From the NCBI RefSeq assembly GCF_964204645.1, contig NC_134031.1, positions 4,819,001 through 4,883,000 of the forward strand: a stretch of 64,000 nt of DNA, in the 5' to 3' direction. The stretch is from Tubulanus polymorphus. Taxonomy: Eukaryota > Nemertea > Palaeonemertea > Tubulaniformes > Tubulanidae. Positions 1,712 through 28,544 of the stretch are shown here, piece by piece (position 1 is the stretch's first letter; every line of letters begins with the position of its first letter). The notes under the pieces were generated by a model. It was not told the origin of the DNA. It was given only the letters and a program-made list of their open reading frames with translations, and did no database searches. A program made the position numbers and the translations under genes.

Positions 1712-4700
1712 TCATTGAATGACGGAGGAGTTTTTCTTTTCGATGTCTTTATCACAGCTAGTGTCTATTCGAGGAGCGTTCAGTACAAAGGTCTCGGCTA
1801 CTAACAGCGGAAATAACAACGAAGCTTCTCCATAAATCTGAAACGATTAAAAAGCACATTAATCATAAAATGAATTTCATTTGATATTCATACAAAGTGG
1901 CCACTTTCCCATATTTCCCCATGTTATAACACAAAATACCCTGAGCGAATTCGAGACATTTTGTGATTTAAGATGTTATAATGAATCGAGTATTGATAAA
2001 AAATGTGCGGACTATAGGATAACGGAATTCCCGAGTTTTCCAGATGATTTTGCAAAATTTGTCAAATTCCCTGAGATTTCCCAGATTTTCTTCTAGATTT
2101 TTCTGCTTCCCTGAGTTTTCCAGGTCAGCAGCTTCCTTGCTCATTCAGCAATATAAGGATGCTTCCCACTGTGGATTTGATTTTTACCTTAACAGGCGTC
2201 GCGCTAAGTCGTATTTTCCCCCAAGATATCGCCTCATCGGGTCTCGCTCCGGAGTCACTGCCATCGTATTCGGTTGATGTGTTCATAAATATCGAGAAAT
2301 CTGCACCATTTCTCTGAAGAGATACAAAAACAAAGTTATTAGGATATAGGAATGACAAACAATTCTTTTTTCCAGGATGGCCACTTTCCAGCAACAATTT
2401 ACAAATTGCCTGAGCTTCCCTGTTCTTTTTCTTGTTCAAAATGTTACGATTTATCAGTTTTTGAATCATGAATCACGCGTTGATAAAGAAACGCATTATC
2501 AATTATAGCGTATCCAAATTCCTGAGTTTTCCAGGTCTTTTGTAAAATCTGTCAAATTCCCTGATCGTTCTAGATTTTCTGAGTTTTCTATCACAGAGGC
2601 TGCCCTGATTTTTAATTGCAAGGTGAAGATGTGATGTACCATTAAGTTTGCATTGCATATGTGATGTTTCATTAAACCTCCTCCAATGATGATCATTCCG
2701 GTGTTCTGAGCGTAAACTGCCTGACTGTTTAACAATCGAATGTCTGAAAAAAAACAGTGAAAATTACATAAACATTCCCTCAACATTTTCATTCATCAAC
2801 AACAACGACGACGAGTTAAACGAACATTGAAACGTACCTTCAACGATATCCAAACGAAGACCCGGGTTTCTGTACGAATGGAAATAAAGCATATCTCCTA
2901 ATGATCCATCCGTTAACGCTGGACTGAACACTGGAATATTATTCTGAAACAATTCGATAATTTTAAATAACAAGAGGTAAGTAAATACAGTAGAACTCGC
3001 GCTTACCGGGTAATCCAGAATTGATGTTAAGAGAATCGAGTGAGAGGATCTGAAGGATTCTGACAAAATAATGGTTTTTACAGTATTTACAGGGTCTCAC
3101 TCCTCAACTCTAAGATATTCTTCTTATAGTATATAGTAAAATGCTTTTAAAGGTACTCGAAACTCCATCAATTTGAGCAAAATACCAAAAACTCCTTCAA
3201 ACAGGCAATCAGAAATTGTTGTCTAGTTTGAAGTTGTACAGTTCAGTGAACTATGCCTAAATTGATACAGCTGGGATTTTTTTTTACCGCGGTTACTGAA
3301 TAAGAAACCAAGTTTAGGTAGTCTTAAGAATAAATGCCACCAATCATTGGTTTTACATGTACCAAGATAAACAGTACCGATTAAGGAGGAGTCTACAGTA
3401 ATTGGAATATGAAAGTGATTCCTTAAAATGTTCTCCTTAAAAACTACTTATCCAGGAATGATTGATCAGTGGGGACCTTGTATTAGCAAGATTTTGTTTT
3501 GTTAACATACCTTATAGGCCCAGTAATACACAGAATCTGGGTGGTTTATTTCTTTCCCTAATCTGTGAATCAACTTCGAAGGAGTCCAGTTAATATTCTG
3601 TGGGAATAAATCATTGTATTATCAAGAAGCTTCGATATAACTGGAATTTTAGAACGATGTTGGATCGATGACCAGCTTTTTCATGATTAAACAAATATGA
3701 GATGAATTCGATCTCAATCATTCTGATTGTATACCTGTTCATTTTGTTCTTTGAGAACCTGGTTTAAAATCGGCATCAGCCAGTCTTCGAATTTGCAATA
3801 GTTATCGTTAGGAACGAGCAGATTGCCGATTCTGTTGATGCCTTTTTTGCGTAACTCGGCACCGGGATATTTATTGAAATCTCCGATATACGTCGGCGCT
3901 AAACATTTGATAAAGTCCTCCTCGACGCCCCCGGCAGTTGTTACAACTACGTCCACCTGAAATGTTATAGTGAATGAAATTACGAGTTGGACTGAACTGT
4001 TAAAAACATTCTCGTTGCAAGTAAATTTTTCATTGGTGCTATTACAGAAGACTCCAAGCAAATTCGATTGCCTCCAATTAATGTAATGAACAAAATAAAT
4101 TTTCTCGTTAAAACGTTTTCCTTCTCCAATTCATGTGATGACGACCCAGACTGCCCCCAGGAGATACAAGGAAAGCAAATTCTACTCCGCAATTTATTGG
4201 AAATGCTTGTTCAGGATTCACAAATGAGTGATGCAGTGAGCAAGGTGTGCGAGGTATGTTTACACTTGCAGCTATTAACGAAATTCTGAGCGCCACCTGA
4301 GTAAGAAAATCAGACAATGAACAAGAAAGATCGGCTACAAGATAACTACCATAGAAACATCATATACAATAGACCCTGTATTAGTCTGAATACCAGTCGT
4401 TGTTACGGTTCCCTCTAACGTTTGTGGAACGACGGCTAGGTACAAGACTAACCCTTTATAATTCAGATTATCTAAGCAAAACAATTCATCTGATAAGCAA
4501 GAAATCCGGACTAAACATCATATTTGCCTACATCTATATAGGTGGACCAAAAATAGCAGTTTACATCAAAATCAAATTAAACTGATTCAGATTAAGCAGG
4601 GTCTTATGCATAACCGGACGAAAACGCTTCTTTACCATTTTATGTTGAACCAAAAACCTAATTGTCTCGCGAACTCCGGAACTGATCATGTTCGACGTAA

Positions 4701-10174: not shown

Positions 10175-13027
10175 TCAACTACGAGGAATGTCCATAGTGA
10201 GAGCCTGCACGATCCACGGATCACACTTGGAACCCTCGCGAAATTCTTCCTTGGAAAGTTTATCATCTCGATTCTACAAAACAAACACATTCAAATATGA
10301 TTAATGAATGATAAATTTGTAGATTGTTTATGGTTTGTTTGTTGTTTACCAAAATCAAAAGCTTAGCCTAGTCTAGCTAAAACTAGCTTAGCCTAAACTA
10401 GCTTAGCCTGGTCGACCTTGGAACCGCACCCTAAGTTGCACAAATCAAAACTGGTCCATTTTGATTTATACCAGCTAATCTTTGATAAGCTTCAGGTCAT
10501 AATAATGATGAGTGCAACAAGCGAAATTTATAAAGGAAAACAGAAAAAAATGATGATTACACAATATTTTGATCAGTGGCAGTATATAATAAGTAGTATT
10601 TATAAGTTTAGTTTCTGAATTGTCTGAAAAGCTGAGCGAGGAACGCTCATACTTTTTCCAAAAAATAAGTATTGTTTGCCTGTAGTATACTGTTAAATTA
10701 AAAACCGGGTCCTGTACTAAACTAAAGGTTTAGTAGTAGCTACTGCGCAACTGAGACCAGATCTTGAAATAAGGTATAATATATACTCAAGATGCCATAT
10801 ATTTTGAGATAAATCACTGTGTGATGTAGACTTACCGTATCCATCTGAGCAAAAATCTTATTGACACGTTTTTCGGGAGTGTCCTCATCTTTTGGCAAGT
10901 CGAGCATATTTCCAACCATACTATAGATGGCGTCTACAATGTCGATCATTTCCGATTTAGTTATATATCCGTCATTGTCGATATCATACAAGTTGAAAGC
11001 CCCTGAAACGCATAAAGAAGTTGACACACAATAGACTTTCTCACTAAAGATAACTTATTAAAGGTACTGCAGAAGATCCAACTCAATGTGGATCATTTGG
11101 GACCAATGAAATCATCGCGGTTTATGTGAAATCCAGATAAGGCTAATAAAATTAATACCTTGTTTCTCATCTCTGTGAGCTTAAAAACGAACTGATTACA
11201 AATTCTATTGCAGTTTACGCAAAATGACCCAGCCGACTAGGAGAAACAAGGTATCATTTTCTTTAGCCTTAAACATCATATTTTACATATCCATATTACA
11301 TCAAAATCCGGTCATAACCACTGTTATCTAATAAAGAAGCATGACCATTCCATGCAAAATTAATGATTTTTATAAAAATCCTTGTTTGTACCAAGGCTAT
11401 TCATCAAGTATCACAAAAATTGGTAAATTTTGCCAACTTCACATGTATATGGCATATGTACGAGGGCGGTACTTACAATCTAATTTCTCATCTAACGTGC
11501 CTCGTGAAGTAACTGATAACGCCACTATGAACTCTTTAAACGATATATAACCATCCTGAAAAATAAACACGTTCAATAACCATTCAAGCGCAATGACGAC
11601 GATGATGATCACGTTCTAAACCGAATTCAGATGAAAATCGATGAAATCCTTTATTTTTTTTTTCAATAAACAGCAAGCTACGACGTATCGACCTACCCGG
11701 TTAGCGTCGAAAACATTGAACACAAAGTTAGCGAACGTAGTCGGATCACCGTGAGGGAAGAACTGTTGATAGATAGACTGAAACTCCTGAAAACAAACAA
11801 AAAAGAATTAGCAAAACAGTGAAGAGCATTTTTGGCCTGTGCCAAATTAGGACCGGAACAACTGTTCACTCGGGTGCCAAATGGGCCCGACCAAAAACAT
11901 CGGACCAGGCCTGAGCCAAATTTTACCACGGGTCAATTCATTGCCCTCGCTGGGCAATCTGGACAATTCCAGTCTGGGCCAAATCATCTCCACGTGATTG
12001 TGGCTCATGTGAGCACGGCTATAACGTTATGGCCATCTGGAACCAGTACTACAGTTGTGAGAGTCATGAATTTAATTTATTTTCAAGTATATAAACCCAT
12101 TCTTTCCGAGATACTTTCCGGGAATCTGACAGCTGCTCGAAATTGAAATGTAAATGGCTGGAAATTGATCTAGAGTTCACCGTGGTCATTTATAGCTCTC
12201 TCTCTCTCTCTAACCTTCATCAACACTCTACATTGTATTGATATAAAATCTCCCTGTTATACATATATATATATCCCTAACTGTCAAATGAAACGTGATA
12301 GATACAATTATATAATAGTTTGTAGCATTTCGAATCTTGTCTCCGTATTAGTGTTGTTGTGAGTGCCGTTAAACTCAGATATATATACTTTCAGATGTCA
12401 GAAAGATGTACTTCACTGATTGATGAATATTTTTATAGGTGTTTCGGCGCTGAAAATCCGGATTTCATCAGCCGTCCGTGGTAGGCATGATAATACTTAA
12501 CTATGAAATTAGGTCTAAGAATTGGAAATGTAATGAACAGGTTCAATATTTGGGTCTATTTGAACAGGGGCGGATCCAGAGGGGGTGCAGGGGGTGCACC
12601 CCCCTAAAATTTTAGGTGCTTTTGTGTCCTTTTTCAGGCCCCAACTTTTCATAATAGGTTTTTATGAATACACTATAGTGCCAATAAGCTGCCATATCGT
12701 AGGTCTTTAAGTCTATATTTTTTCGAAATTTTCTTGGGGAGTACCCCAAACCCCTGCAGGCTTCGCACCTTCGGTGCTCGTGTGGCGCCAGCTATGAAGT
12801 AGTCGCCCTTCTTTTTGCTGCACTGCCTCTTTGAAGAAATCCTAGATCATCCTTATTGATAGGGTCTCCACATAGTGGTGTGGCAAGTCTTCTGCGATAT
12901 GGGTAGAATCACAGTACAGCGTAAATACCAGATGAACATCCAAGCCAGCATTCTATGTTCTCACATGGTAATTTTTAGTCATACACTATTTCAAGAGACC
13001 TTCACACCATCATTGCATACATTATGA

Positions 13028-13065
<38 letters not shown>

Positions 13066-16000
13066 CTTACGTAAATAGAGTGCGGATTGGATTTCTTCAA
13101 GTCATGTTTAAAGCACATTTTAAAGCATATAATAGCGTATTGTTTACGTTTCGATGTTAATGGCTCGTCCGCCGTCTGCACATATAGAAAACCTGTCACC
13201 TAAAATTAGATCGAAATAACTCGACTCCCAGAAGTCACACGTAATTAGATTATCGACGAAAATTAAATTTCCGCTTATTCGAGGTGAGTAGAGACATGTT
13301 GTTCGTTCGGAATATTTCATACGAACGGTTCACGTCGAGTAGCGTTCAGACGCTTTACTCGTATTCGGAATAAGTTTCAGTTTATCTGCGTATTCTGACG
13401 GCTGCCGGCGCGGCGGTTGTGGAAACGATAACTCCTCGTCTGTATTCCCCGTGAAATTTATCGCTGATAACGCGTAAAATGCCATCGGCGTCGAATAAAA
13501 GGCCGGCAAATAATTCATTCACTTAATTTCCAGTTCTGGCAACTTATATAATTTTCAGCTTTCTTAATGAAGCCTCTTAATATCTGTTTTCGATTGTTAA
13601 ATGGGTTTATAAACTTTTTGTAAAAGTTTGTCTGCATAGATATATACCATGTACATCATATATCTATGTGGAAAAGCTCCTGAAGTACCTATCAAATATT
13701 AATTAGATGTTTGATGTTATATACTTGAATCATCTTCAGGTATACGCCATACGGTATTTGTATCTGTATTGCAGGGCTACCAACCTCTGAAAAGTGTAAA
13801 AAAGTGTACTTTTTTCAGTCACATTACTTCATTGAAATACGAAAGAACATGTTCAATTATTCAGTAATCAACAGTAAGACCCTCGGTAACATCTTTCATA
13901 TCTATTTATGCATCAAAAAAACCAAATCAGTATTTCTCATGATTGAATAGTTACAAAAACTGAAAATCAGAGATTGCGGCCACCTTTTCAGAGAATACGA
14001 ATCAAAAAGACTTTCTTTCTAAATTTCCATTGCAGTCGCACGCGACGAGACCCAGCACAAGACCCAGCGGGGACAAATATACAAACATATGATTTTCCAG
14101 TCAACGGATTACGAGATTATTTGCAAATTACAGGTTTAAATGGTAGACGGATTATCAATTAATCCCCTGCAAGTTGTCGGCCATAGAAAGCGAACTGCCG
14201 TTCTAATGGAATAATAAGCCATAATCACACGGGAGAACTGATTAATTATTTCCATTCTCGCAGCGTGTTTTCCCTTGAATAGCGGACGCACTCCGCGAGT
14301 GACCGCAGTACCTACCACACCCTGATTTAATTAAAGACCACTGAAACCTCGCCGGACCACTCGCCGTTTCATTCACAGCGCGGTCACTGCAGAGGTAGTT
14401 ACCAGTTTTTTCAAAACGCGATATCGGTTAAACGAAGGGACCGAAATCTAATTAGCGAATAAAACCCCGCCGAACGAAGCCCCATTAACCCTCGGCTCAC
14501 ATTTGGGAGCGACGAGGATACGAAATAATTTCGGGCGGCATTCGAGGCCTGAACGTCGAACCAAACCGAAGCCCTCGGAAACTTCGAAAATGCCTTTTCT
14601 ACCGATGAGACCGCGACAAGTGAATTCTATAACGGAACGATTGGCCAGTACGCCTACAGTGGCTAGCGTCGCCGCCCGGCACGACTTCGACGCGCAAAGC
14701 TGTCATATTCAGTTTTTGAAGCTACGCGACGGTCGAGTTCAACCGTTCAAAAACCAACTGCGAAATCCGACCGTTCAGTTCGTGTTCGCGCGAACGAAAT
14801 CAGCTCAATCGGCGCGCGGCGGCAGCATGGATACTACGCAGGCAGAAAACAGCGCGAAATCATCGACGGAAAGCTGGACGCCGGGACTCGCGCGGTATTA
14901 TCTCGGCTATCAAGCGGTCAACTCGGACGAACTGCGGTCGATCGTCGAGCGTTTAACGAAGCCGACCCTGGCAAGTCGCGGCGGTATCGACCTGCGCGAT
15001 AAACGTTACGAATACATTCCGAAACTGCGTCTGAAAACGTTGCCCGTCATCGATGGATTAGAATCGCGGTATCGCGGCGACCGAGCGCCCGCGACGCCGG
15101 AAGCGCTGGACGAGATCGTCAGACGTCTGACGCGACCGACGGCGGCGACGACCGCGCGCGATCGGTCCACGCCGAACCCAAACGATAAACCGACGAAACG
15201 CGTCATCTGATCGGATCGGACGCGACACACGAGACCGCAATGAATAGTAATCACGAAAATACGACTTTTCTCGCGGCGGAATTTCTCTGATTAATATTCA
15301 TCGAGATTTCGTCGCAGCGTTCGAATTTGAATTCGTTTGAATTTCAAATATATCGAAGTTGACGCAGCCGTCGTCAATATTGAGTTGATAAACAGCGACG
15401 AACACTCGATGGATGTGATCTGAGTAGGCGGAGGATTTCATCATCGCTCGCTCGACTTTGTGAACACTCGGACATAAATATCAATTTTTATTCTCGCGCG
15501 TAATCAATTCATATATTGCGCCGCAGTAAATCGATCTCAAGTCAATTTCATCCAGAAACAGCAGACGCCTCGTTAAAAAGATAAGTAAACCGCGTCGACT
15601 GACGACCGACCGGGTGCGAATAATGAATAAATGCAAAGTTTGGGAAGAGAAAAAAGCAAGACGGAACATGTCGGGTAAATACACGAGTGTCGCAGATGTC
15701 ATCAGCGAATTTATGTAAATCGGAATTTTTCCCCTTTCGACGAGGCACAGACTTTTCGACTGTCCTACGAACAAAACATCTACGACGAATCATTGACACT
15801 CGTCGTCAAAGGTTAATACCATAATCGTTATTAAACTGTTATTAAGTATTTATATTTCAACCGAAGTATGTTTATTCTGACGAAAAAAGTTGTGATTATA
15901 AGTAGATTTATGCATATAAATATGTCATATAAACCGTACACAATAACGGTATTTAGAGTCGTTAATGGTTATTCATTGAACGGGAATAAAGATCCGACCA

Positions 16001-19000
16001 GTAGACACCGACTGGTCAATAGCGTAAAGATTATAACCCGCGGCCAGTCGCGTAGCCACGACGTAAACGTTTTCGACCCGGGCCAAATTTTGCCCGTCCC
16101 GCACTAGGCCCGGGGCCAACCGTTCACAGAAGTGCCAAACGGGCCCTTGCCTATTCGACACGGGCAAAATATGGTCCGATGAAAAATACCGGACAAGGCC
16201 TGGGTCAAGTTTGCGTGAATACTAACTGGTTCTGGAAGTGATTCACCATTTCAGTATCAAGCGAGTGAGTCACGTGTGAAAGCGCTCTTCAATTAGGCAC
16301 AGGCCTCCGGTCTGGTCCAGACCGGTTTGACGCGGGCCAAATCATCTCGTTCTCTGGTTGCGATTGTGGCTTTACCATATTACCTTTTAGAGCCAATCTA
16401 ACTATTTTAAGACCGGTCTCACTTATACTTCAATTAGTCATGACTAATGCACGAAAGTGGCCATAACTACTGTTATATAATATCAATGTTATAATAAATT
16501 TTTTGTTTGTTGAATGACACCTAAATTGTTAGTCTTGAATGTTATCTATTATCGAGTCTATTATTTTCGCAGCCAAGATTTCAGCCAAGAAACTGCACTT
16601 CGAATACAACGAAAACTATTTAGGTATGAAGACACGAGACGTGCGCGATTACAATAATGAAGCTCATTTGAAAGAAAGCGGTTTCTATTTGCGCTGTCAG
16701 TCATACGTAGTACAAAAACTGATTTCTATTTGACGGCTGCGAAGACGTTTTCGTTCAATACAACCGAAAAATAGTTCATTCGAGAAAACTAGCTTGATTT
16801 ATGACGACACCGTTCGTACAAAGCCCTCCGTAAAAATCGGGGATAAAACAAATTCTCACATCGTCGCTTACGAACGCAACGCGTCGATTGAACACGAGCC
16901 CTGCAGATTTTAAAAAGCGATCTTTAACTGTGTGTCGATCATAAATTAATGGTTTCTCGGGGACGAGGGAGAGACCCCGACCGAAATTAGTCGCGTGACC
17001 TACACGGATAGGTGTGATAAAGACGTTATTGGTAACTCGGAAGGTGTCAGAGTCGTGACAAATAACATTCACTGAATATATATATTCTATATATACGACT
17101 TATTTTTCTAGAATATATAAACATTATACGACTTTCGGTTGCTAGTCATTCGAGTTGAATGCTGTAGATTTCGATCGTCGTACGGAAAGCTATAAACTTA
17201 CTGTAAGTAATCAATGATTTTCTGTAATGATTGTATAAATCAATTTTTACGTCATTTGCCGACGTTTTTCATTAATCTTTATCGGCAGCGTCATTTCTTC
17301 GGCGGTTGATCGCTTGAAATAGGGTTCGCACGGGTTTCCCAATTTCATTTTCTATATCTTTGCCATACCCAGATTATAGATTTTCAATACCCCTGAGTTA
17401 CGCATCGCCAACCTAGAACAGGCAATGTGTAGGCCCATTCAAAGTAAATAAGTGCCAATTATCAATACCATTGAGACAAGTGTTTTTATTAAGTTTGTTA
17501 TCAAATGTGTAGTGAGACATTTAGGCATGTAGCCTGAAATTCAAAATGCAAAGAAAATTTCAATTTGAGACCATATTCCGATTTTTCAATAACTTCTCCA
17601 TAGCCATAGAGAAAAAAAACAAAATTTCCATAGGTCTTCGACGACCTGGAAAAAAAATCCCATTTTCCAAAACGCCGTCAAAGAACGCCGTCAAAGAAAC
17701 GTTCATTCACAATGAGCGCTCGTTATTGGCAATGCTATTTTAATCGAATTTCATTTCAGCCGATTTCTATCGCTAGCCGCACGTCTAAATGCTTCAAAAT
17801 TGGCTTGTGGCCATTTCTTAATCTTGCGAAATAACGAACGCGCGGCTTGTCGTCGTTGTAAGAAAGCAGCTCAGAGATAAATTTCTCAAATATTTCTCGC
17901 AAGTAACGATGACTTACAGCAAGCCGCGCGGCGCGGCATAAATCATATAGTATTACAATAGAAAATGTAAGCTTTTCATTTGAAGACATCGAGTTTTGTA
18001 GCCAGGCTACGAGACATCGGGTGCCGTCTGCCGTCTTAGTCGTATTAGATACGGATCAATTTCAGCATGTCGAATAATACGCGAACATGTCCATCGCAAG
18101 CCGCCCATATAGTCACAGCGCGCACTATACAGCAGGCTATCTACAGAGCAGTCATTCCTGAATATAGGGAATTTCAGGGGAGAAATTTTCAAATTTCGAG
18201 GAAGCGTCTACATCACTGTCATATCCCAATTACTGTAGACTCTTTCTAAATCGGTACTGTTTTTCTCAGTAAACCATTAATTCAGTGGTTTATTTAGCAA
18301 ATATTTATCCGTTACACTACCTACTATTGGTAATTGCCAAATTGGGTAAAAACAAATCCTCGTCCTGATTTAGGTGGTCTACTGTACAACTACAAACTAG
18401 ACAAAAATTTCTAATAGCCTAATAGTCAAAAAGGCGTTTTGGGTACCTAGTTGGTTCAAATTAAAGGAGTTTCAAATGCCTTTAATTAAGCATTTTCCGT
18501 TTTTAAGGAATTTTTAAGGACGTAGGGATTCTGTATGGTATCAATTCGTACGACGACAGGTTTTTTTCGCACAAATATGATGACAAATTATGATGACAAA
18601 TGCATTATCGTTGAACAAACATCATTCCCAGCCGAAGGTTGAATTACTTCCTGATATTTACAACAAACTGTGTTTCGTCCTCTCTGAATACTGAACGATA
18701 TACCTGGTAATACTACTACGGGTAGTGCCTGTGATGATGCCAATAGATTCTAAATCGGAGAAAATGTTGTAAAGGTCAACGTTCTCCTCCGTTGAGAACG
18801 TCAGCCGGTTAGCGATAAAATCTTCCTTACCTCTTTCCTAAGGAAGCCACTGGGACAATCTTTCATGAAGTCTTTATGCCTACAGGAAAAATGAAAAGAA
18901 TTAAAATCTAACTTGAAACTATAACGTTAGGACCTGGGGGAAAAGAGCCACACTTTCCAGTAATGTTCCAAAAAAGTGAGCCAAAACCTAACGGGTATTG

Positions 19001-22000
19001 ATATTTAAGAAGCATAGCCTTAGAGAGCTGTTTATGGACCCAGGATCACGGAGGGGTGCACCACCAAAATAGGTAGAATACCATATAATTACAAGGGTAC
19101 TCCGAAAGAAAGTTTATTGGGACACATAAATTCATTTTTGAAAATACAGAGAACAAGATTATGAATTTAAACTTTCTTAGGGAATAGTAATTAGTATATT
19201 TCATTGCCCAATGAAATATCCGGGCAACTTGACATTTAAGGGGAGGACACCCTCCCTGGATGCGCCCCCCCCCCCCGGTACCCCATCCAATATTCCGAAT
19301 AAATTGTGTGTTGACTGTGAAATTATCAACGCACGCAAACAGAGAACATAACAATATAAACTGAAAACTAGTTATGAAATAATCGTGACAGACGTGAGCC
19401 TGAATTGAAGGCAGTTGTTAGCAGTGCTACAGTGTTTAATTCATAATCTAATCAAGATGCCAGACATGAGGCGTATAAATTCAATCATCGATGAGTACAG
19501 GTTAGCCGATATGAGAGACGACCGTTTAAACGCTGTTATACTACTCACCATCGCTGTAACTCTTTCTTGTCAACTGCAAATAGAGAAATGTTGAGGAGGT
19601 GATTTCGGATGTTTGGATTAATATAACGACGATGAGCGGGACAATCAAGAGAGGCCACCCGAGAGTACGCCGAGTTTCAACTCGATGTCCTGAGGTCTTC
19701 AAATACTGATCAAAGCCGAATAATATTTCTCAATATAAAATCCATTAGCTGACAGAGAAAATAGGGAAATTCAAGTTTCAACCGTAGGAGCTCTTCACTG
19801 CACTATGGCTTCATTGGTATTGCCATCTTTGACATTGATTGGGCTCTTATGCTACTCCTCAGCCTCGAATTGAAGTGTTTCAGTTTCTATATGATATTTC
19901 ATGTCTTAATTAAAGGCTAACGTGGAACCTCAAAAGCCAAGTGACAGTTGACGCTAATATGACCATTTTGAAACCCAGGGCTGCCGACCTCTGAAAAGTG
20001 CTATCAGTAACAAATTGAATTTTTTTCAGTGACATTTCATTGAAATATGAAAGAAAATGTTGAAATCGGTCATTAATCAACAGTAAGATATATATATATA
20101 TATATATATATATATCTATATAAGTCCGCAGAAGCGCGCGAAGTGCTCCGAGAGATTTGCGCCGCTCAGTGCGACGTACTGAATCATCGGGCGTTTAATG
20201 CGACGACGGTATACGCGGGAAAACGCGTGACAGATATGGGTGATGAAATGATGGCACTATTTCAGCCTATAAAAGCAAACAGACACCGATTAATCAGCGT
20301 TAAAGTTGACAAGGAAAGATTGCATTCGGATACAATCAGCGAAGTCTGCGCCGCATTCCGCATAATCTACTTTGTCGATTTATGCTTGACTGATGACGTC
20401 CTCAGTTCGTTCTTTTACTTGCGATGTTCGAAACTTTCGTACGACGCCAACTTCTGCGTCTTCCTACGTGGATTTCATACCGGGTCCCTACTACAGATCG
20501 GCCCTTCCTGAATATAAGGAGTTTTAAAGGAGAAAACTTCAAGGAAGCGTCTGCATCACTTTCATATTCACTCCTCCTAAACCAGTACTGTTTATCTCGG
20601 TAAACCGTAAATTTGGTGGCTTTGTAAGCAAGTTTTTATCCTTTACGCTAAGTAACCTTGATTTCTAATTTGGTAAATTGGGTAAAAAAAATCCTGGTCT
20701 TAACTGTTCCAATTAAGGTGTTCGTTTTCTGTACAACTACAAACATGTCTAGTCACCATTTCTCAAAATTGAAGGAGTTTTGGGCGTTTTGCTCAAATAA
20801 AAGGAGTTTCAAGCAACTTTGAAACCAATTTCTGTATAGAGGGAGTTTTTAAGGAATCAAGGAGTCATAGGGACCCTGAAATAACTACATAGCAGCAGCA
20901 GCAGCAGTGAGTAAGAGTGAGTAGGAGTAGACCCCTGTTGTGAAATGTTAAAAATAAATATCTCAGATGGCCACGGATCAAATGGATCGCTCTGCTGCTA
21001 CTACCACCGCGCGAGTGAAATCTACAAAAGTTTTTGTAACTCACATTTCGCTCGGAGATAACTAATGTGCTATATAAAAACAAGCCCAGGTTTTTATCGC
21101 AAAACGCATCGAAGAAAAAAAAACTAAACGCGATAGAAAACAAATTCCCAACCCATCTGTCGACCATTTTTTAAAGAAAGTTTCTAAAGATTACGGCACA
21201 CTATCTTCAGCCAATAGCAACTCAGTTTGAAGAGCACAAGTGGAAAGTGGTGTTATAAGTGGACTGGTTTCATCATAGTTGTTTGATTGGTTATCAGTAG
21301 TAAATCAAAGATATATTCCCTACCGATCAGCCATTCCTGGATATAAGTTTTCAAGAAGTTTGAAAAGAGAACATTTCAAATTTCGAGGAAGTGTCTGCAT
21401 CACTTTCATATCTCAATTACGGTAGACTTCTCCTAAATCGGTACTGTTTATTTCGGTAAACCATTAATTTAGCGGTTTTTTAAGCAAATTATTATCCTAT
21501 GCACTAATCTAACTGAGTTTTTAATTTGGAAACTGCCTAATTAGGTAAGAACAAATCCTGGTCCCAAATGTATCAATTTAGAAGTAGGCCTAGCCTACTG
21601 TACAACTATGTACTAGACAAAAATTTCTAATTGCCCATTTCTCAAAATTGAAGGAATTAAACAGGTTTTAAAGGAATTCTGGGCATTTTCTTCAAATGAA
21701 AGGAGTTTCAAGCACCTTTTCAAAAGCATATTCCGTTAAGGAGTTTTTAAGGAATCAAGGAGTCATAGGGACCTGGATACTAGTAATTTCATAGTTTCAT
21801 GCGTATGTTCATACTTTAGAATGAACGGATGTCAAATAGCCCGAGCTCCGTATCAATATTCCGCGCAGCTCTACGCACTAATCAAATAGCCATTTAGACC
21901 GAATTAACATTTGAGTGTTGCCATCGACGCGAATATCATATAGTCATAGAGAGACGTTCGGTACGTCGGATTAATGGTCGAAAAATACCCCGTAAAAACT

Positions 22001-25000
22001 CGGCTCTTATCAATCGTTCGGTCGTTTGAGCGCTCCACCGGATAGCCATCAAACGTAAGCTCCAGTACGTACCGATCATTCAGCAACGTCCGCAACGCTA
22101 TTATTTATTATTAAGCAAATACCGAAGCTTTGTTAATGATGCAGAAACGCCGGCGTTTATTTATCCGAATAATCGCTTGTAAAAAATAACTCGAGCCAAT
22201 TTGTAACGATTTTTCTCTTTTTGCCGTCGCGAATAATAAATCGCCGATTTATCGGACGGCTGACGACGACGAACGTTCCGTCCCGGATTAGAAAATTCAT
22301 TGAATTATATAATATCCACGATCACGCGGAGACGATTTTGCCCGGAGTAAGCCCGAGTCTAATTTGGCCCGTGTCTAGGGAGCACGTTCGCACATTAACT
22401 ACTCACTCGATGTTTAAAATGTGAGTCACTTCCGGAACCAGTTGCAATTCGGCTCGGGCCTGGTCCAACGTTTTTTGGTCGGGCCAAATGTAGCCCGGGT
22501 CTAACAGGCACGAACCCATTGATTTAGCACCCATATGAACAGCTTTTCCAGGCCTAAACGCTCGTGTGATTGTGGCTAATATCTACCGTACAACATTTTG
22601 GGTACATTTACTCGATTGAATCTAGAGTCCATGATTGAAGAAGGCTAGTAACGTACGAGGTATTACGAGGTATTATATTGTGGAAATGTACTACAGATGT
22701 GTATATAGTACTAATCGTTATAGACTAGTCTAGTACGTATACTCATAGATATCAAATCTACAGGTATTTTGATCAAACCAGATAATCAACCGCACAAAGC
22801 CTTTCAAATTCAACGAGCTAAGCTGTAATACGTACATCTCTGATTTCTAATGTCCTAAACTTCGGCATAAAAGCATAAAGATCTACAAGCGTAACTTATT
22901 TAGGCAAACTCGATTAAGAGTGGCCAAGTGGTTAAATGCAACCTTTTTTCAGCTGACCAAACATTTCAAAAACATCTAGTTAATTACTCATGTCAATGTT
23001 AAGATACATTGCTCAACATTTTGACACAAAATTTGTCATTTGATTTTTAGCAAAAAGGTGCCTAGAAAGTATCTAATTTTTCTAAATTTTCCGAGGGAGG
23101 GCCCCTTGAGGTGCACCATGCCTTCAGTGGTCCAGCACAGCCTAGCGCGCCCCCTTCCTCAAATTCTTAGATCCACCCCTGTAATACTGATCTCATCCGG
23201 CAAAATCCGGGTGGGCAGCGTTTGTAAGTTGGAGGTTAAAGTTTATTTTCTGGCCTACCCTGATGCATAATCAGGAAAAGGAAAACCTTGCTAATAATTT
23301 CTGTGAGTGGCGCTCAGCACTTTGAAAATAATCAAAGGCTATTACCAGCCCTGTTTATCATAGAAAACCTGTGGATTCTACCAGCAGTTTACAAGTTAGG
23401 CCATCCCAAAATAATGGTCTGTTTTCTGTAACGCCACCGACCCGACTTCAAAGGTACCGAGTGAAAACTTTTTTTGAGGATTCATTGAAATAAATTTTAT
23501 TTTTGATTTTGTTTCCATATGAAAAAGGTGATAAATTTGTTGTTTTTTTTTGCCCTAAATAATTGCAAAAAAATATTTCTACCTACCAACCGACTCATCC
23601 TGAAAACTTGTGTCGCTGTTACGGCAAACAGACATTTATTTTGGGATGGCCTTAGTACTGTACTAAATAGACCTCAGATTGGTTCAATAGCCGAATGCCG
23701 TTTTACAGCGATTGTAACCCTACATCCCGATAAGTCGATGCTGACCCTTAACAGAAAATGTACTCATTAGTCACCGTATGAATAACAAGTTTCATCGGAT
23801 CAAAGAGATATGAAGATACACGACGAGACTTTTAAGATGAATGTCGAAGCTCGCGCGATGAGACGATCAAATCAAATCATAATTATCGATCGTCGCGTTT
23901 AAACTGATCCATCCTGTAACAGGTGTCTACGTTCACAGCTCTCTCATTACAACGATCATTAAAAACGTACCCAGCACCAATTAGATGATTACCGCGGCTG
24001 CTAACCCGATTACGCAGGACTATCTATTCTATATAAAATCATGGGTGTGTGTAGTCTATCTGACAGTCTGATTATAAATTTTCGATAAAAGTTTCCAGTC
24101 GTACTATCCTAGACGTGAAACCGATCGAATCTATTTGATGGCTGTACATTACGTCGAGCGAATATGAATCAAATTTCTGGCCCGTTGCTAGTCGCTGAAA
24201 TGAATCGCGAATAGATATTATTATTCCTGTCGACGACGGTCTCAGCGTTTCAGCGAGAAATCGCTTCGCGCTTGAATTGAAGTTTTCAGTTTCTATATGA
24301 TAAATCTAATATTCATTAGTCTGTGGTCTGTGGGACCCTGGACACCCCTTGGAAGGCGCTCGCCTTCGCGGAAACCCAACAATACCCCTTTTTTTGCTAT
24401 CCGATCAACAGAAAAATGAAAAGATACATCACTGGTATATCAGTTATTAATTGAAGTAAATCTATAAGAACCAGTGTTATTTCCATCAGTTAACACAGGT
24501 CAGGAAGGATAAAAACTGATATCTACAGCTTATCTTAACCCGAGGCTTAAAACTGCAGTTTAAAATGCTTAGCTCTTCTATCAAATTATTGTGAGGAATT
24601 TAAGTGGTTTAGGTCTGATATCATATAATTTTAAGTTCCAAAGCAAAATATAGTGCCCATCAAATTAGCATGTAAACAATCACGCCCGAGACATCATCGT
24701 CATATCATCAATGATGTCGATGTGATGTCCATGGATGTCAATTGTTACAGTGAAAATCTTGGCACAGCCCTAACCATGGTTGCTAATATTAATATAATAT
24801 ATAATATTTTTTTTATTAGTCTTTGGTTGACTGCACACAGCCTTGCTATAAATAAGTAACGAACTGCCGTGCCTGAGGAGAATGTGAATGATGAACAGCT
24901 GCCATGGCCCATGAATGAATGCATTTTGCCAACAATCTATATGTCAACAATGAATTTCTAATGATGTCTACTTACAATATGTAATTTCGGTTAATTCCTT

Positions 25001-25039
25001 AATTTCATGAACTGTCAACTTGCTAGAATTCTTCCCCAT
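10175..25039 (-). CDS. Neuronal calcium sensor (NCS-1/frequenin-like), complete, seven coding exons
   Basis: A myristoylated EF-hand calcium sensor; relatives control neurotransmission, channels and PI4-kinase. Coding exons: 25039-24976, 19573-19549 (25-nt microexon), 18879-18831, 11786-11697, 11555-11477, 11002-10836 and 10273-10175. All are GT-AG with matching phases and give 190 aa, the usual NCS-1 length. The start MGKNSSKL carries the N-myristoylation pattern (Gly2, Ser5/6). EF1 is the cryptic family form with CPSG. EF2 has the loop [14 protein letters not shown]3 [12 protein letters not shown] and EF4 [26 protein letters not shown] and DTPEKRV are strongly NCS-1-like. EF4 position 6 is Asp instead of the usual Gly, and the tail [10 protein letters not shown] differs from the vertebrate tail. 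Intron 3 (7.0 kb) hosts an antisense gene at 14590-15210. NCS-2-type naming is equally possible. Confidence 0.95.
11832..12030 (+). repeat. GGGCCAAAT-family repeat, copy 1
   Basis: Relatively GC-rich for its surroundings, with GTGCCAAATGGGCCCGACCA, CGGACCAGGCCTGAGCCAAAT and TGGGCCAAATCATCTC. Related copies are at 16070-16370 (direct) and 22335-22585 (inverted). The ORF across it is an accident of the repeat. Confidence 0.7.
12555..12830 (+). repeat. CAGGGGCGGATCC-type dispersed repeat, copy 2
   Basis: Begins with AGGGGCGGATCCAGAGGGGG at about 12565, then a self-complementary GGGGGTGCACCCCCC, then TTGGGGAGTACCCCAAACCC and a palindromic CTTCGCACCTTCGGTGCTCG. No reading frame of note. Confidence 0.6.
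13030..13063. repeat. (AT)n microsatellite
   Basis: About 17 uninterrupted AT units directly beside the candidate splice donor at 13070. Confidence 0.9.
13071..13518 (-). CDS. Candidate two-exon coding segment (alternative 5' end of the calcium sensor, or a nested gene)
   Basis: Two coding-like pieces lie in intron 3 of the calcium-sensor gene on the same strand. Piece one runs from an ATG at 13518 ([12 protein letters not shown]...) to the donor A|GTAAAG at 13359, phase 1. Piece two starts after GGTGACAG at 13192, runs [18 protein letters not shown]... to SIY, and ends at TAC|GTAAGA at 13071, phase 0. The phases match across a 166-bp intron. The last phase also matches the next sensor exon (11786), which begins in phase 0 with EFQSIYQQ. 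Splicing that way would give a sensor with a new N-terminus, without the myristoylation site and cryptic EF1. Alternatively piece two from 13199 (129 nt, phase 0/0) could be a cassette exon. I do not recognise the sequence; no transcript evidence is available. Confidence 0.3.
13772..13983. mobile_element. MITE-like element with GCTGCCAAC-type ends, copy 2
   Basis: Starts CAGGGCTACCAACCTCTGAA and shares CATTGAAATACGAAAGAACATG, AATCAACAGTAAGAC and AAATCAGTATTTCTCATGAT with the copy at 4883-5236. It lacks the nested insertion and so shows the empty site. Confidence 0.75.
14590..15210 (+). CDS. Intronless gene for a 206-aa protein with three 'IVxRLxxPTxA' motifs, nested antisense in the calcium-sensor intron
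   Basis: Unrecognised protein. The first ATG (14590, A at -3) opens a frame to TGA at 15208-15210; codon use is rich in CpG and distinct from the flanks. A short motif occurs three times: [16 protein letters not shown] (residues 11-26), [16 protein letters not shown] (about 113-128) and [16 protein letters not shown] (about 172-187). The N-terminus, [10 protein letters not shown], resembles PFFMLYRPTREEV of the gene at 25647, so the two are paralogues. The protein is basic, rich in Arg, Thr, Pro and Ala, with no signal peptide or membrane segment. AATAAA at 15626-15631 could serve as poly(A) signal. Small basic proteins with short repeated motifs are common among ciliary and sperm microtubule inner proteins, but that role is only a guess here. 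The lack of introns, unlike its paralogue, would fit a retrocopy or early intron loss. Confidence 0.8.
   Translation: MPFLPMRPRQVNSITERLASTPTVASVAARHDFDAQSCHIQFLKLRDGRVQPFKNQLRNPTVQFVFARTKSAQSARGGSMDTTQAENSAKSSTESWTPGLARYYLGYQAVNSDELRSIVERLTKPTLASRGGIDLRDKRYEYIPKLRLKTLPVIDGLESRYRGDRAPATPEALDEIVRRLTRPTAATTARDRSTPNPNDKPTKRVI
16070..16370 (+). repeat. GGGCCAAAT-family repeat, copy 2
   Basis: CGACCCGGGCCAAATTTTGC, AGTGCCAAACGGGCCC, ATACCGGACAAGGCCTGGGT and CGGGCCAAATCATCTCGTTC parallel copy 1 at 11832-12030 in the same order. Somewhat longer, with an extra CAGACCGG palindrome. Confidence 0.7.
16776..17072 (-). CDS. Coding-like 98-codon frame, unrecognised
   Basis: An open frame starting [15 protein letters not shown] and ending NQASFLE. 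It has balanced amino-acid use and CpG-containing codons like the true genes here, and it lies in the large third intron of the calcium-sensor gene on the same strand. I recognise no family, and no clear splice sites tie it to a neighbour. It could be a small gene, a decayed exon or chance in a CpG-rich region. Confidence 0.2.
   Translation of the reverse strand: MNVICHDSDTFRVTNNVFITPIRVGHATNFGRGLSLVPEKPLIYDRHTVKDRFLKSAGLVFNRRVAFVSDDVRICFIPDFYGGLCTNGVVINQASFLE
17330..17470 (+). repeat. Dispersed repeat, forward copy (pair of 37745-37862)
   Basis: ATCGCCAACCTAGAA, GGCCCATTCAAAGTAAATAA and ATCAATACCAT recur as reverse complement at 37745-37862, 20 kb away. Confidence 0.75.
18140..18540 (+). 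repeat. About 400-bp dispersed repeat, copy 1
   Basis: Shared landmarks with 20488-20875 and 21320-21773, in order: ATTCCTGAATATA.GG, GAGGAAGCGTCTACATCACT, CGGTACTGTTT..CTC.GTAAACC, CAAATTGGGTAA, TACTGTACAACTAC, AAAGGAGTTTCAA, and TTTTTAAGGA near the end. All three copies point the same way within 3.6 kb. Confidence 0.8.
19031..19280. repeat. Degenerate repeat ending in a poly-C tract
   Basis: GGACCCAGGATCACGGAGGGGTGCACC at the left and CACCCTCCCTGGATGCGCC followed by about 13 C at 19265-19277 on the right look like worn, inverted ends of a GGATCC-type element. Weak. Confidence 0.3.
19974..20090. mobile_element. MITE-like element with GCTGCCAAC-type ends, copy 3, truncated by a TA microsatellite
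   Basis: Starts CCAGGGCTGCCGACCTCTGA and follows copies 1 and 2 through TTTCATTGAAATATGAAAGA and AATCAACAGTAAGA. It then changes abruptly into (TA)n at 20088-20117; the right half of the element is missing. Confidence 0.75.
20119..20511 (+). CDS. Coding-like open frame of about 130 codons, unrecognised, ending in a repeat
   Basis: An open frame reads from about 20123 ([20 protein letters not shown]...) to the stop at 20509-20511. The first two thirds have convincing codon use (GATATGGGTGATGAAATGATG region: [13 protein letters not shown]). The last few codons run into the 400-bp repeat copy that starts near 20488. It sits in intron 1 of the calcium-sensor gene, antisense to it, directly after a TA microsatellite and a truncated MITE. 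That placement suggests a fragment of a mobile element or a retrocopied exon rather than an intact gene. No start ATG precedes the conserved-looking part and no family is recognised. Confidence 0.3.
   Translation, partial: YKSAEAREVLREICAAQCDVLNHRAFNATTVYAGKRVTDMGDEMMALFQPIKANRHRLISVKVDKERLHSDTISEVCAAFRIIYFVDLCLTDDVLSSFFYLRCSKLSYDANFCVFLRGFHTGSLLQIGPS
20488..20875 (+). repeat. About 400-bp dispersed repeat, copy 2
   Basis: Same order of landmarks as the copy at 18140-18540; ends AAGGAATCAAGGAGTCATAG followed by GGACC, as copy 3 does. Confidence 0.8.
20891..20907. repeat. (CAG)n microsatellite
   Basis: Six CAG/AGC units just after the end of repeat copy 2; not in a supported reading frame. 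Confidence 0.85.
21320..21773 (+). repeat. About 400-bp dispersed repeat, copy 3
   Basis: Follows copies 1 and 2 from ATTCCTGGATATAAG to AAGGAGTCATAGGGACC, with a few extra bases near GGAATTAAACAGG. Direct orientation, 445 bp after copy 2. Confidence 0.8.
22335..22585 (-). repeat. GGGCCAAAT-family repeat, copy 3 (inverted)
   Basis: CGGCTCGGGCCTGGTCCAAC followed by TTTTTGGTCGGGCC is the reverse complement of the matching stretch in copy 1 (11832-12030). The left part also carries GCCCGAGTCTAATTTGGCCC. Confidence 0.7.
23095..23183 (-). repeat. GGATCC-type dispersed repeat end, inverted
   Basis: GGAGGGCCCCTTGAGGTGCA at the left and AGATCCACCCCTG at the right correspond to the CAGGGGCGGATCC-type repeat in the opposite orientation. 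Short and worn. Confidence 0.45.
23399..23651. mobile_element. 253-bp MITE with GGCCATCCCAAAATAA inverted repeats and TTA target duplication
   Basis: The left arm starts GGCCATCCCAAAATAATGGT and the right arm, on the opposite strand, starts GGCCATCCCAAAATAAATGT; they pair for about 35 bp up to GTAAC with few mismatches. TTA flanks both ends (23396-23398, 23652-23654). A 3-bp TTA duplication is what PIF/Harbinger elements make. The interior is AT-rich and has no transposase. Confidence 0.85.
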
Positions 25040-25630
25040 AATATTCACCGCTATTCAAACCAATTTACAACATGTTACATCGATGTAATACTGTACAGCT
25101 GATCACAGTATCAGCATCCAGTTCAGCATCACGCCATCCGGGTTTACCTCTCTGACGTCATTATCGGGATACCCACTGTACTCGCTTACCTGAGGCAATT
25201 TGTTACTGAGCGTCTATCACATTCCGTTAGATGGCGCATTGGTAAACGTGACCAGATCGTTTAGTTATGCCCAGTTGACGCGGTATTCTTCAGATTCATT
25301 TACCCAGGGGCCCGACACAATTTTTGGACACATTATCATCGGTACCTATACATGAAAAAAACGTAGATATTGAGTTTTTAACGTTTTTTGCGCCAGACCT
25401 CTGCTCTGGACATCTACCCGGGTAGGTGGGACGGCCCTTTATTGCGCGCTAAAGTTTGGGTTAACGTATTTTGAATTGATAGGTCTTATGTTTCGGCGCA
25501 ATTGTTCATAATACTGCCATTTTCAAGCTTTCGTCCATTTTTCGTTTGAATTTTATTCTGGATCCACGCCTTGTAATGAAGTAACTTACTAACGAAGAAA
25601 TGTGAATGAGATATCTTTTTTTACTTCCAG
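25040..25630. promoter_or_regulatory. Shared upstream region between two divergent genes
   Basis: Between the calcium-sensor start codon (minus, 25039) and the first recognised exon of the plus-strand PT-motif gene (acceptor at 25630). It must hold the sensor 5' UTR/promoter and a non-coding first exon of the plus gene, unless that exon lies farther upstream. No TATA box or specific site can be assigned with confidence. Confidence 0.4.
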
Positions 25631-25646
25631 GCCAGAAAACACAAAA

Positions 25647-26592
25647 ATGTCTTATCGCCAGCTGGATTCCTTCACACCATTTTTCATGCTATACAGACCG
25701 ACCCGTGAAGAAGTAAACAACATCGTCGATCGAGTTTCCCGCCCCACAACAGCCCACTGCAGGAGGTCACGTTCATATTCTGAGGTAAGCACTGTAAAGG
25801 GTCGACGTCCCAAAATGCATGGGTTTTGGAACAATTTGGAAAATTGAAAGATGCGACCAAAAACCATAAAATTCCTCTATCCTTTATGGACGTGTAACCT
25901 CACGTCCTAATCAGGAATTTCGTTGGATCTGGACCCAGTTTGTCGGGTGTGTATATGTATATACATCACCTAAAAACATCTCGAAAACTTGGCTAATTCA
26001 AGAGCGGCGCCACCTGTTTTGGATTTGGGGGACCCAAAATTTGAAAATTTCAATCGGGAATTTCGGTTTGAATAGATGTCATGGTAAAATCTAGTCAGCA
26101 ACCTGTCTGTGGATAAGTTTTAAGTGCGGATATTTTTACAAAGCCCATCCGATTATAAAAGTTTACCGCCAACGATTAGGTAACTATATAGGTAATATTG
26201 TAACTGAATATTGGCATCGTTATTTGCAGGCTAGAATAAGATACGAATCTGAAGAAAATCAAAAGGTGAAACAAATGACTTTTCGAGATTACGCACGAAC
26301 TTCTCGCGTACCGGTACCGAAACATTACGGAGGGACGCGTAAAACAATTACGCCTGACCGAATAGACGCGCTAGTTACTCGCATCAACAAACCAACGAAG
26401 ACGTATTGCATGAGAGTGTTTTCTACGGAGGAACTGATGAAATCTCGAGAGCTACCGCCCGGCACCGCTGAAAGAGGACGATCAGCGCAGTCGCGTGACC
26501 GATCGTCTGCCGTTTCCGATCGCCGCCGTCCGATGACATCTCCAACGCGATCCGGATCCGATATGCGCGGAGATCAGCAGACAAGCGCTTAA
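25647..26592 (+). CDS. Two-coding-exon gene for a 166-aa protein with two 'IVxRxxxPT' motifs, paralogue of 14590-15210
   Basis: Unrecognised protein. Coding exon 1 is 25647-25784 (46 codons, ATG with A at -3, just after the acceptor TTACTTCCAG at 25621-25630, so a non-coding first exon should exist upstream). Coding exon 2 is 26230-26592 (120 codons plus stop) after TATTTGCAG. The donor GAG|GTAAGC and acceptor join in phase 0. Motifs are EVNNIVDRVSRPTTAH (about residues 22-37) and RIDALVTRINKPTKTY in the second exon. The tail is Ser/Arg-rich and probably disordered. No signal peptide or membrane span. It starts 607 bp from, and divergent to, the calcium sensor, and ends 75 bp from the stop of a convergent gene. 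The intron contains a copy of the dispersed repeat also seen at 7684-7800. A cytoskeletal or axonemal role is only a guess. Confidence 0.8.
26091..26196 (-). repeat. Dispersed repeat, inverted copy (pair of 7684-7800)
   Basis: AAGCCCATCCGATTATAAAA and CCAACGATTAGGTAAC are reverse complements of the copy at 7684-7800. It sits in the intron of the two-exon PT-motif gene, ending about 30 bp before the acceptor. Confidence 0.75.
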
Positions 26593-26667: not shown

Positions 26668-28544
26668 TTAGGGATACTGTGGATAGACTGTCTGACTTGG
26701 CCAAGCTGTCGGATCATTTTTCGAGGTTATTGCCAAATACAAAGCGAAATTCTGATTACCTTGGGCGTTTGGTAGTTTTTCGAATTTGACGGCTAAAATT
26801 CTACCCGTCGAACTGTCTCCACTATTTGGATTTACCGGATAGTTACCGTTGCAATAGCGCGTCGTATCAGCTGGTATATCGTAGATTCCCTGTTTGGAAT
26901 ATTGCATGAATCCAACTTGACAGTTGGGCTGTAGATCGCTCGCATAGTGAACCGTCTGAAACCGACAGATTTTGTTCTATGATGCTTTTTTTGTTAATTT
27001 CATTGAATAAAATCATAATCCCTGATATTCGTCAGGGACGGTGCTTTTTTAATCACGGCAAAAACTGGTCTCTCACCTCGCCTTCCGGGGCTATGGCGAA
27101 AATATTCAAGGTTTCGAAATTTCCATTTGCTGGATCAACTTGAAGCATCGTTCTCAGTTGTGGATCTTTCAGATGGACGACGTAATTTGTACCAGCTGGT
27201 ATGATTTCACGAGGGCCTGGAACGCAATAGAAATTTTAGGCTTACACAGAAAAAGAGTTTGCGGATTATCTATTTCAGATTCGGTTTAACTATGGAATCT
27301 AAAACGAAGAAAAATACGAGAATGCGGTAGCAATTTCTTTGACAACAAACACCGGCCTGAGATTTAACGTAGAAACTCAGTTTCAACTTACGATTTTCCC
27401 CACCCCCAGTCCGATACATTTGCCACAGTCAATGTTCTCGTTTATGAAAACACTGATCACCGTTTGTCGGATATCTGGGAATCCAGGGATAGAAATATAA
27501 AATATACCATAAGTAGAAAATTTCCACAAGGAAGTTAGAAGTATTAATGAGAATTTATCAACATTGAACGTGATATTCTCAATAACACATTATAAAATTT
27601 CTACATATTTATATCTGTAATCAAAGCACGGTTTAGATATAACGTATATTTCTAAATAAATGAAAATCCAAAAGTGAATGTACAGTCGCTTATCATTTCA
27701 ATCCAGTTGAATCAATTCGCAATTCATATTTCCTTTTGGCATTTTGACCTCTGGAATATTAACCGTATGGTATGTTTTATCTCTGGCATCATTACCGCGT
27801 ACCACTATTTGGATGCGCTTTAGTGTACAGAAACCGTATACGGTCTCATTGCAATGAAAACAAATTGATGAACGCTAAATTCCCCGAAACTGTATTCCAT
27901 GATATACTGATCCCCGAACCCTCAAACTAGAAACAGTATAACATACATGGTGCAGGTTGAGGCGGCGGGGCCGGTTCCGGAGCTCTGTTCATAGCCGGAT
28001 ATCTCGGTGGCAGAAACCGCCGTGGTCCAAACGGCGGAAAGAACGGGTTTAGTTGAAACAATGGCGGATACCACGGTTCTGAAATGGAAAAAAATTGCTT
28101 ACGAAATAAATGTGAATCAAAGTAAATTAGAAGTGATTCAGTAAAACAAGACTAGCTTTCTCAATAATCGTGGATACATACAGAATATAGAATATAGGTA
28201 ATGACTCCCCCGGTAAACTAGAGTTAAATAACTTAGACAAAATCTAGATAACATTTTTCACAGCAATGTCTAGGGCTACATAGATATTCTATTATTAGTT
28301 TTAAACTATATTTCTTCATACAAATTTTAGAAACTATGATAATGTAATTTTTGGTGCATGTAGCAAGTCATAGATTATCCAATGTAAATATTGTGACCAA
28401 TACCACGGATAATTTGAAATTTTGAAAAGATTTTTCAACGTAAGAATATTGAAATATTTTGTCGAATTGTTGGGGTTGGTTGTTTACCTACGGGGATATT
28501 TACCGGGATTTTTACCTGAGGGTTTTTTACCGGGGGTTTGTTAC
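26668..28544 (-). CDS. Unrecognised gene with a proline/aromatic-rich region, 5' end not found
   Basis: Exons read on the minus strand: 28544-28488 (tentative), 28078-27947, 27216-27077 and 26955-26668. Donors are GTAAAC, GTATGT and GTGAGA; phases join at every step. About 204 residues are recovered. In order: a PV-repeat piece (NKPPVKNPQVKIPVNIPV), a Pro/Trp/Tyr/Phe-rich piece (PWYPPLFQLNPFFPPFG, later APEPAPPPQPAPC), then a more ordinary, probably folded part with NYVVHLKDPQL, LNIFAIAPEG, GFMQYSKQGIYDIPAD and a C-terminus of SQTVYPQYP. There are few cysteines. The missing 5' exon may encode a signal peptide; an extracellular matrix or secreted role is an inference from composition only. The first exon is uncertain because it coincides with a GGTAAA tandem array and has a poor pyrimidine tract. 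The other three are well supported. Confidence 0.7.

Follow-up and report, generated by a model that had tools for sequence, protein, structure and literature searches.

The closest described systems are found in trypanosomatids. In the one paper found to name ArcMAP1-4 (PMC7617938), these proteins form a lateral arc outside protofilaments B04-B08 of the doublet microtubules of L. tarentolae and C. fasciculata. ArcMAPs have at least four helices, one per successive protofilament, which often engage residue D431 of alpha-tubulin through a conserved Arg. Swimming speed is reduced in ArcMAP1 or ArcMAP4 knockouts but not in ArcMAP2 or ArcMAP3 knockouts (same source). ArcMAP1-4 are included in the Leishmania tarentolae doublet microtubule model, PDB 9E78. 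A similar niche outside the mammalian sperm doublet is taken by SPMAP2 and SPMAP2L, described there as unrelated to ArcMAPs (PMC7617938). In general, ciliary outer proteins are stated to be without repetitive, lattice-imprinted modules in a recent review (PMC13406575). Short, often repeated tubulin-binding peptides are on record for the luminal side: PMC10973386 lists the Mn, NWE, PYG, GFG and SNYG modules.

Here we describe three proteins, A, B and C, built on copies of a short peptide, and compare them with these systems. A and B are encoded within the window, i.e. the whole stretch of DNA that was analyzed (64 kb); C is encoded elsewhere in the same genome.

Genes A and B at the calcium sensor locus

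The preliminary description had proposed an intronless gene with three motifs and a two-exon gene with two motifs (Table 1), and both gene structures were borne out. Gene A consists of one uninterrupted frame coding for 206 aa, with a lone in-frame ATG and no internal stop. The two exons of gene B, once joined, code for 166 aa and have GT/AG borders; use of the second in-frame donor, nine bases further on, would give 169 aa. The ORF length of A is not beyond chance, as a frame of this length occurred in 114 of 2000 random 1500-base sequences having the first-order composition of A's own ORF. Since ORF length alone is no proof, we accept A as a gene on account of its homology to B and C.

Table 1. 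Features of the analyzed window (positions are those of the window; motif residues are numbered within the respective protein)
Feature	Position	Strand	Description
Gene A	14590..15210	+	single open frame, 206 aa, without introns, three motif copies
A motif 1	14608..14667	+	residues 7-26; longer than the other copies by one residue (RLASTPT)
A motif 2	14920..14976	+	residues 111-129; matches motif pattern
A motif 3	15094..15150	+	residues 169-187; matches motif pattern
Gene B coding exon 1	25647..25784	+	residues 1-46; alternative donor possible 9 bases on
Gene B coding exon 2	26230..26592	+	residues 47-166 and stop
B motif 1	25701..25757	+	residues 19-37, TREEVNNIVDRVSRPTTAH; matches motif pattern
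B motif 2	26350..26406	+	residues 87-105, TPDRIDALVTRINKPTKTY; matches motif pattern
NCS-1-like sensor gene	10190..25039	-	hosts A in an intron, neighbors B; not a family member
Sensor coding pieces	25039-24977, 18879-18831, 11786-11697, 11555 to ~11477, 11000-10839, 10273-10190	-	

An acceptor-like tract, TTTTTTTACTTCCAG (pyrimidine tract and AG, 25616-25630), ends 16 bases upstream of the ATG of B. A similar tract (approximately 1448-1462 of L010, the locus extracted around C) lies 8 bases upstream of the ATG of C, whereas the 50 bases preceding the ATG of A contain no acceptor-like site. Judging by these tracts, B and C may possess a 5' untranslated intron or undergo spliced-leader trans-splicing. 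B and C also have a C-terminal string in common (RGRSAQSR, 26473-26496, in B and RSRSAQAR, 2239-2262 of L010, in C), possibly a second short motif or a phosphorylation site. Just downstream of B, the minus strand contains a 102-aa open frame (26668-26976) without a Pfam match at E<=0.01.

The gene that surrounds A and adjoins B codes for an NCS-1-like calcium sensor. Its product is 72% identical to human NCS-1 over residues 104-157 (54 residues), is nearer to NCS-1 than to hippocalcin (the only two proteins compared) and is matched by EF-hand models in Pfam. A lies antisense between the second coding piece, which has splice borders at both ends and begins near NCS-1 residue 31, and the exon starting at 11786. 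An exon for residues 22-30 (NCS-1 numbering) was looked for and not located; therefore, there is probably one extra upstream exon, and A is probably in intron 3. Thus, the antisense, intronic placement of A given in the preliminary description stands, and the numbering of the intron holds if residues 22-30 fill one more exon. B is indeed head to head with the sensor gene, the two ATGs being 608 bases apart (25039 on the minus strand and 25647 on the plus strand). We considered a calcium-sensing role for A and B from position alone and did not keep it. A functional tie to the sensor is not supported, as nothing but position speaks for it and C resides on another contig; the location of A and B beside the NCS-1-like gene looks incidental. 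Elsewhere in the window, two minus-strand frames (2125-2472 and 3714-4130) match deoxyhypusine synthase (Pfam DS) and are, on the basis of this match, probably exons of a deoxyhypusine synthase gene.

A repeated motif in three proteins

When the full genome (268 Mb, 77 contigs) was searched with a consensus of the motif, A and B were recovered together with one further locus. The latter contains gene C, an uninterrupted coding frame of 266 aa (C2:28649394-28650191) on a contig other than that of A and B, with five motif copies 44-59 residues apart. All five are found by a profile of four A and B copies (A's first motif was left out) with 33.7 bits; shuffling C 20,000 times gave no score above 10.6 bits. 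Full-length C as a genome query retrieved neither A nor B. Further consensus-motif queries, in which the best candidates were scored, gave no fourth member among the matches listed; because only the best candidates were scored, further members may have been missed. An ArcMAP-like consensus used as a genome query had no match among the best candidates scored. Two other loci, a polyQ-rich frame (L002) and a TEVVEG-type repeat (L012), were inspected and dropped as unrelated.

The ten copies of the three proteins were aligned with copy boundaries set by hand and one residue of A's first motif omitted. The consensus of the motif spans about 19 residues, [ST]xEExxxIVxRLx[KR]PTxAS. The Arg is invariant across the ten copies and PT is present in eight. 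A strict motif pattern is matched twice in A, twice in B and four times in C, numbers reached by none of 20,000 shuffles of each protein. At the DNA level, a pattern for the motif has four sites in the window, all within A and B, whereas 100 shuffles averaged 0.00 sites. The order proposed earlier, hydrophobic positions before an Arg and then Lys/Arg-Pro-Thr, is therefore real and above shuffles, except that the first copy of A has an extra residue. In contrast, the common spacing claimed for the five copies of A and B did not hold up: the Arg-to-Arg gaps are 104 and 58 residues in A and 68 in B, and only C is nearly regular (59, 44, 49 and 49). The linker between motifs 3 and 4 of C (within 1471-2271 of L010) is cysteine-rich, CCYICEDSRNSDIMKECFC, and from its sequence could bind metal. 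All three proteins are small and basic (K+R exceeds D+E in each).

A and B are diverged paralogs. Residues 94-194 of A align with residues 7-112 of B at 29% identity (BLASTP, E=6e-07 in a single comparison), with two motifs in the same order. What had been described as a paralogous pair thus stands as far as A and B are concerned, but has a third gene elsewhere in the genome. The similarity of the N-termini, also reported earlier, is seen by eye, but BLAST aligns the N-terminus of B to the second motif of A. The two genes share a strand and are separated by about 10 kb, an arrangement that would fit an old local duplication. In the three-protein alignment, the last two motifs of C pair with the last two of A, including RMQKTTNASKGGKDM.

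Could A be a non-functional copy of B, its antisense site being merely the place where the copy landed? A is without introns and its ORF length by itself is within chance for its composition, as would suit such a copy. However, the coding frame of C is also uninterrupted, so that the absence of introns in A is no mark of a retrocopy. Moreover, two of the three motifs of A match the strict pattern, the likeness between A and C runs past the motif core (RMQKTTNASKGGKDM on the C side), and the single ATG of A is followed by no premature stop. We consider this explanation highly improbable.

None of the three proteins reaches the cut-off of any Pfam-A family (24,736 models), and the earlier statement that no named family could be recognized holds within Pfam-A and the PDB. 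UPF0561 (PF10573) was a weak match to A (18.8 bits, E=0.0019, against a 25-bit cut-off) and was rejected as chance: it covers residues 29-119 with no motif in full and is unlisted for B and C. DUF7342 and three other families, which matched a made-up consensus peptide below the Pfam cut-off, were likewise rejected. We found no description of the motif in animals in the literature searched, which was queried by topic rather than by motif letters and contains few subscription papers. Orthologs of A, B and C may already be annotated under uninformative names.

Profile link to outer-doublet proteins

We compared the profile of all ten copies with 177,635 distinct PDB sequences, among which mammalian cilia and sperm doublet structures are to be expected. 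Out of 14 sequences matched at E<=10, ArcMAP2 ranked first (E=1.7e-5) and ArcMAP4 second (E=0.0079). These E-values are sums over a number of weak stretches, none of which has an E-value below 3 by itself. VxR-type peptides underlie four of the five stretches reported for ArcMAP2, one of them reading VNRMSKPKKT. As a control, the letter-reversed profile listed one PDB sequence, at E=1.5. The match to ArcMAPs depended on pooling the copies. In the PDB, the five A and B copies alone gave no ArcMAP at E<=10; the five C copies alone gave ArcMAP2 at rank 4 (E=1.4) and ArcMAP4 at rank 10 (E=10), behind CCDC25. Full-length A, B and C (phmmer) and a three-sequence profile matched no ArcMAP or other microtubule protein at E<=10 in the same database.

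Once ArcMAP fragments were added to the profile, MOP23A (E=7.7e-4), MOP23B (8.4e-4), MOP23C (0.34) and ArcMAP3 (1.2) were matched in the PDB. We take MOP23A-C (PDB 9e2g) to be Trypanosoma brucei outer-doublet proteins; a literature search for MOP23 gave no relevant paper. Because ArcMAP fragments were part of the query alignment, the ArcMAP scores of this search are circular and MOP23 is no more than a semi-independent match. ArcMAP3 appeared in this partly circular search only, and ArcMAP1 was absent from the PDB match lists examined. In the opposite direction, a profile of 15 ArcMAP/MOP23 copies gave A, B and C scores that were reached by 0, 10 and 0 of 10,000 shuffles, respectively, with C exceeding the best shuffle by just 0.1 bit. 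As the 15 copies were chosen from the earlier ArcMAP/MOP23 alignments, this test is not fully independent. The stretches it reported cover two of the three A motifs (the first was missed), both B motifs and two of the five C motifs, in addition to residues 117-122 of C, which are off motif. A THEG protein from the same genome was not reported by this profile.

The PDB matches to FI20010p1 (7cfb; presumably Krimper), WipA, ribosomal L4 and L7, CCDC25, Mre11 and helical repeat proteins were rejected as chance; we know of no tubulin link for any of them.

The likeness between the two sets of proteins is visible in several features. ArcMAP and MOP23 proteins, too, are small (166-197 aa) and carry repeated [ST]xEExxxVxRL peptides with the Arg at the same place, and some of their copies run on into SKPK or SKP, as in A, B and C. 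The first four Args of ArcMAP2 and ArcMAP4 are 40-51 residues apart, close to the gaps of C. There are also clear differences. PT, which follows eight of the ten copies in A, B and C, follows none of the positively scored ArcMAP copies. The copy number varies from two to five, the proteins come from an animal rather than from trypanosomatids, and they are known from sequence alone. Of the ArcMAP features, the set of at least four helices would have a counterpart in C (five copies), whereas A (three) and B (two) fall short of it. Full-length homology to ArcMAPs was absent in the phmmer and three-sequence profile searches at E<=10. For these two reasons, A, B and C are not classified here as ArcMAPs.

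It might be argued that the resemblance is due to convergence or chance, and that the peptide docks onto some other partner, e.g. another filament or a scaffold. The matched stretch comprises only about 13 residues and PT does not occur in the positively scored ArcMAP copies, so that convergence on a helix-Arg peptide is conceivable; the A/B-only and C-only profiles are weak, and the next entries in the ten-copy profile list, F4132-2 (presumably a repeat protein made by design) and WipA, have E-values of 0.06-0.21. Nevertheless, a single protein class holds ranks 1 and 2 among all the PDB sequences, the best match of the reversed profile has only E=1.5, and the reciprocal profile agrees, within its incomplete independence. 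Overall, we regard convergence or chance as rather unlikely.

The motif might alternatively be a microtubule-binding repeat of the luminal side, making A, B and C microtubule inner proteins comparable to those with Mn, PYG or GFG repeats. Their small size, basic character and repeats would suit such a role, given that the inner-protein modules in PMC10973386 are short and repeated, and that outer ciliary proteins generally lack such repeats according to the review (PMC13406575). However, by eye, none of the PMC10973386 module signatures compared resembles the motif; for instance, the unit of the Mn repeat (MAP6/SAXO) is [TS][TS]X4[YF], and the NWE, PYG, GFG and SNYG signatures differ as well. 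In addition, the PDB matches listed include two outer ArcMAPs and no recognized inner protein. We judge the luminal reading unlikely, though a serious alternative.

THEG (SPMAP2) proteins deserve consideration because SPMAP2 and SPMAP2L occupy the ArcMAP niche in mammalian sperm (PMC7617938) and also consist of short repeated units, albeit with a different consensus, [ST]xRIxxLAxPK. The THEG repeats of the present genome are of this type, and hhalign aligns the THEG unit with the present motif in a register that makes sense (E=0.0065 in a single comparison). Yet the hhalign probability is only 5.8, and a Pfam search at E<=10 lists THEG (PF14912) for none of the three proteins. By eye, the Arg is on the opposite side of the hydrophobic core. 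Furthermore, the genome has separate THEG genes: with ten candidates scored, all eight matches over the PF14912 cut-off fall at two other loci and none at A, B or C. One of these loci (C8:10258757-10259266) has three matches in one 195-codon frame, and the other (C2:994604-995655) has five matches over several frames. With separate THEG genes present and a weak profile match, we rejected membership of A, B and C in this family; that they are diverged THEG proteins is most improbable.

A putative docking peptide of the axonemal surface

The preliminary description had suggested that the copies serve as docking peptides, with microtubules as one possible partner. Selection of ArcMAP2 and ArcMAP4 by the pooled profile gives this idea independent, if indirect, support, although without the equal spacing of copies on which it had partly been based. 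Our own reading, plausible but tentative, is that A, B and C together represent a small family of animal proteins, each made up of copies of one peptide, and that they are axonemal microtubule-binding staples of the outer surface, similar to ArcMAPs.

The AlphaFold model of A alone is very poor (pLDDT 32.5). It has five helices, and those at residues 8-19, 112-122 and 170-180 overlie the three motifs, ending at Arg-Leu or one residue beyond. With respect to the repeated Arg helices of ArcMAPs, the Arg-bearing repeat is present in A, B and C, while helicity comes from this very poor model and the sub-profiles are weak. Each copy would most likely be a short helix of amphipathic character, docking onto the surface of a tubulin subunit through its hydrophobic face (I/L-V-x-x-L) and the invariant Arg. 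K/R-P-T, which usually comes next, would terminate the helix and open the linker to the following docking site; the linkers, spanning 44-104 residues from one motif Arg to the next, would otherwise be unstructured.

Docking on the outer surface is suggested by the analogy with ArcMAPs only. By this analogy, the Arg would form a salt bridge with alpha-tubulin D431, and successive copies would settle on successive protofilaments, two in the case of B, three for A and five for C. The three proteins would then be staples of differing length on the axonemal doublet. In the genome, EKDYEEVG is present in each of the three alpha-tubulin loci that were read (L031, L032 and L033; ten loci matched). We assume this string to be the sequence context of alpha-tubulin D431.

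By comparison with the described systems, A, B and C probably are undescribed parts of cilia or sperm tails. They probably work like ArcMAPs and, in the way of working at the outer surface of the axoneme, probably also resemble THEG/SPMAP2. A broader evolutionary scenario appears doubtful at present: A, B and C might be the animal branch of an ancient outer-doublet repeat, of which ArcMAP/MOP23 would be another branch. Such a repeat would be a lattice-imprinted 'helix-Arg-KPT' module whose copy number sets the number of protofilaments spanned.

The repeats on the inner side of ciliary microtubules are well catalogued. If the interpretation of A, B and C as outer-surface staples is true, their motif would provide a sequence handle for unknown outer-doublet proteins in animals. 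Moreover, the copy numbers of two, three and five make the idea of one copy for one protofilament directly testable.
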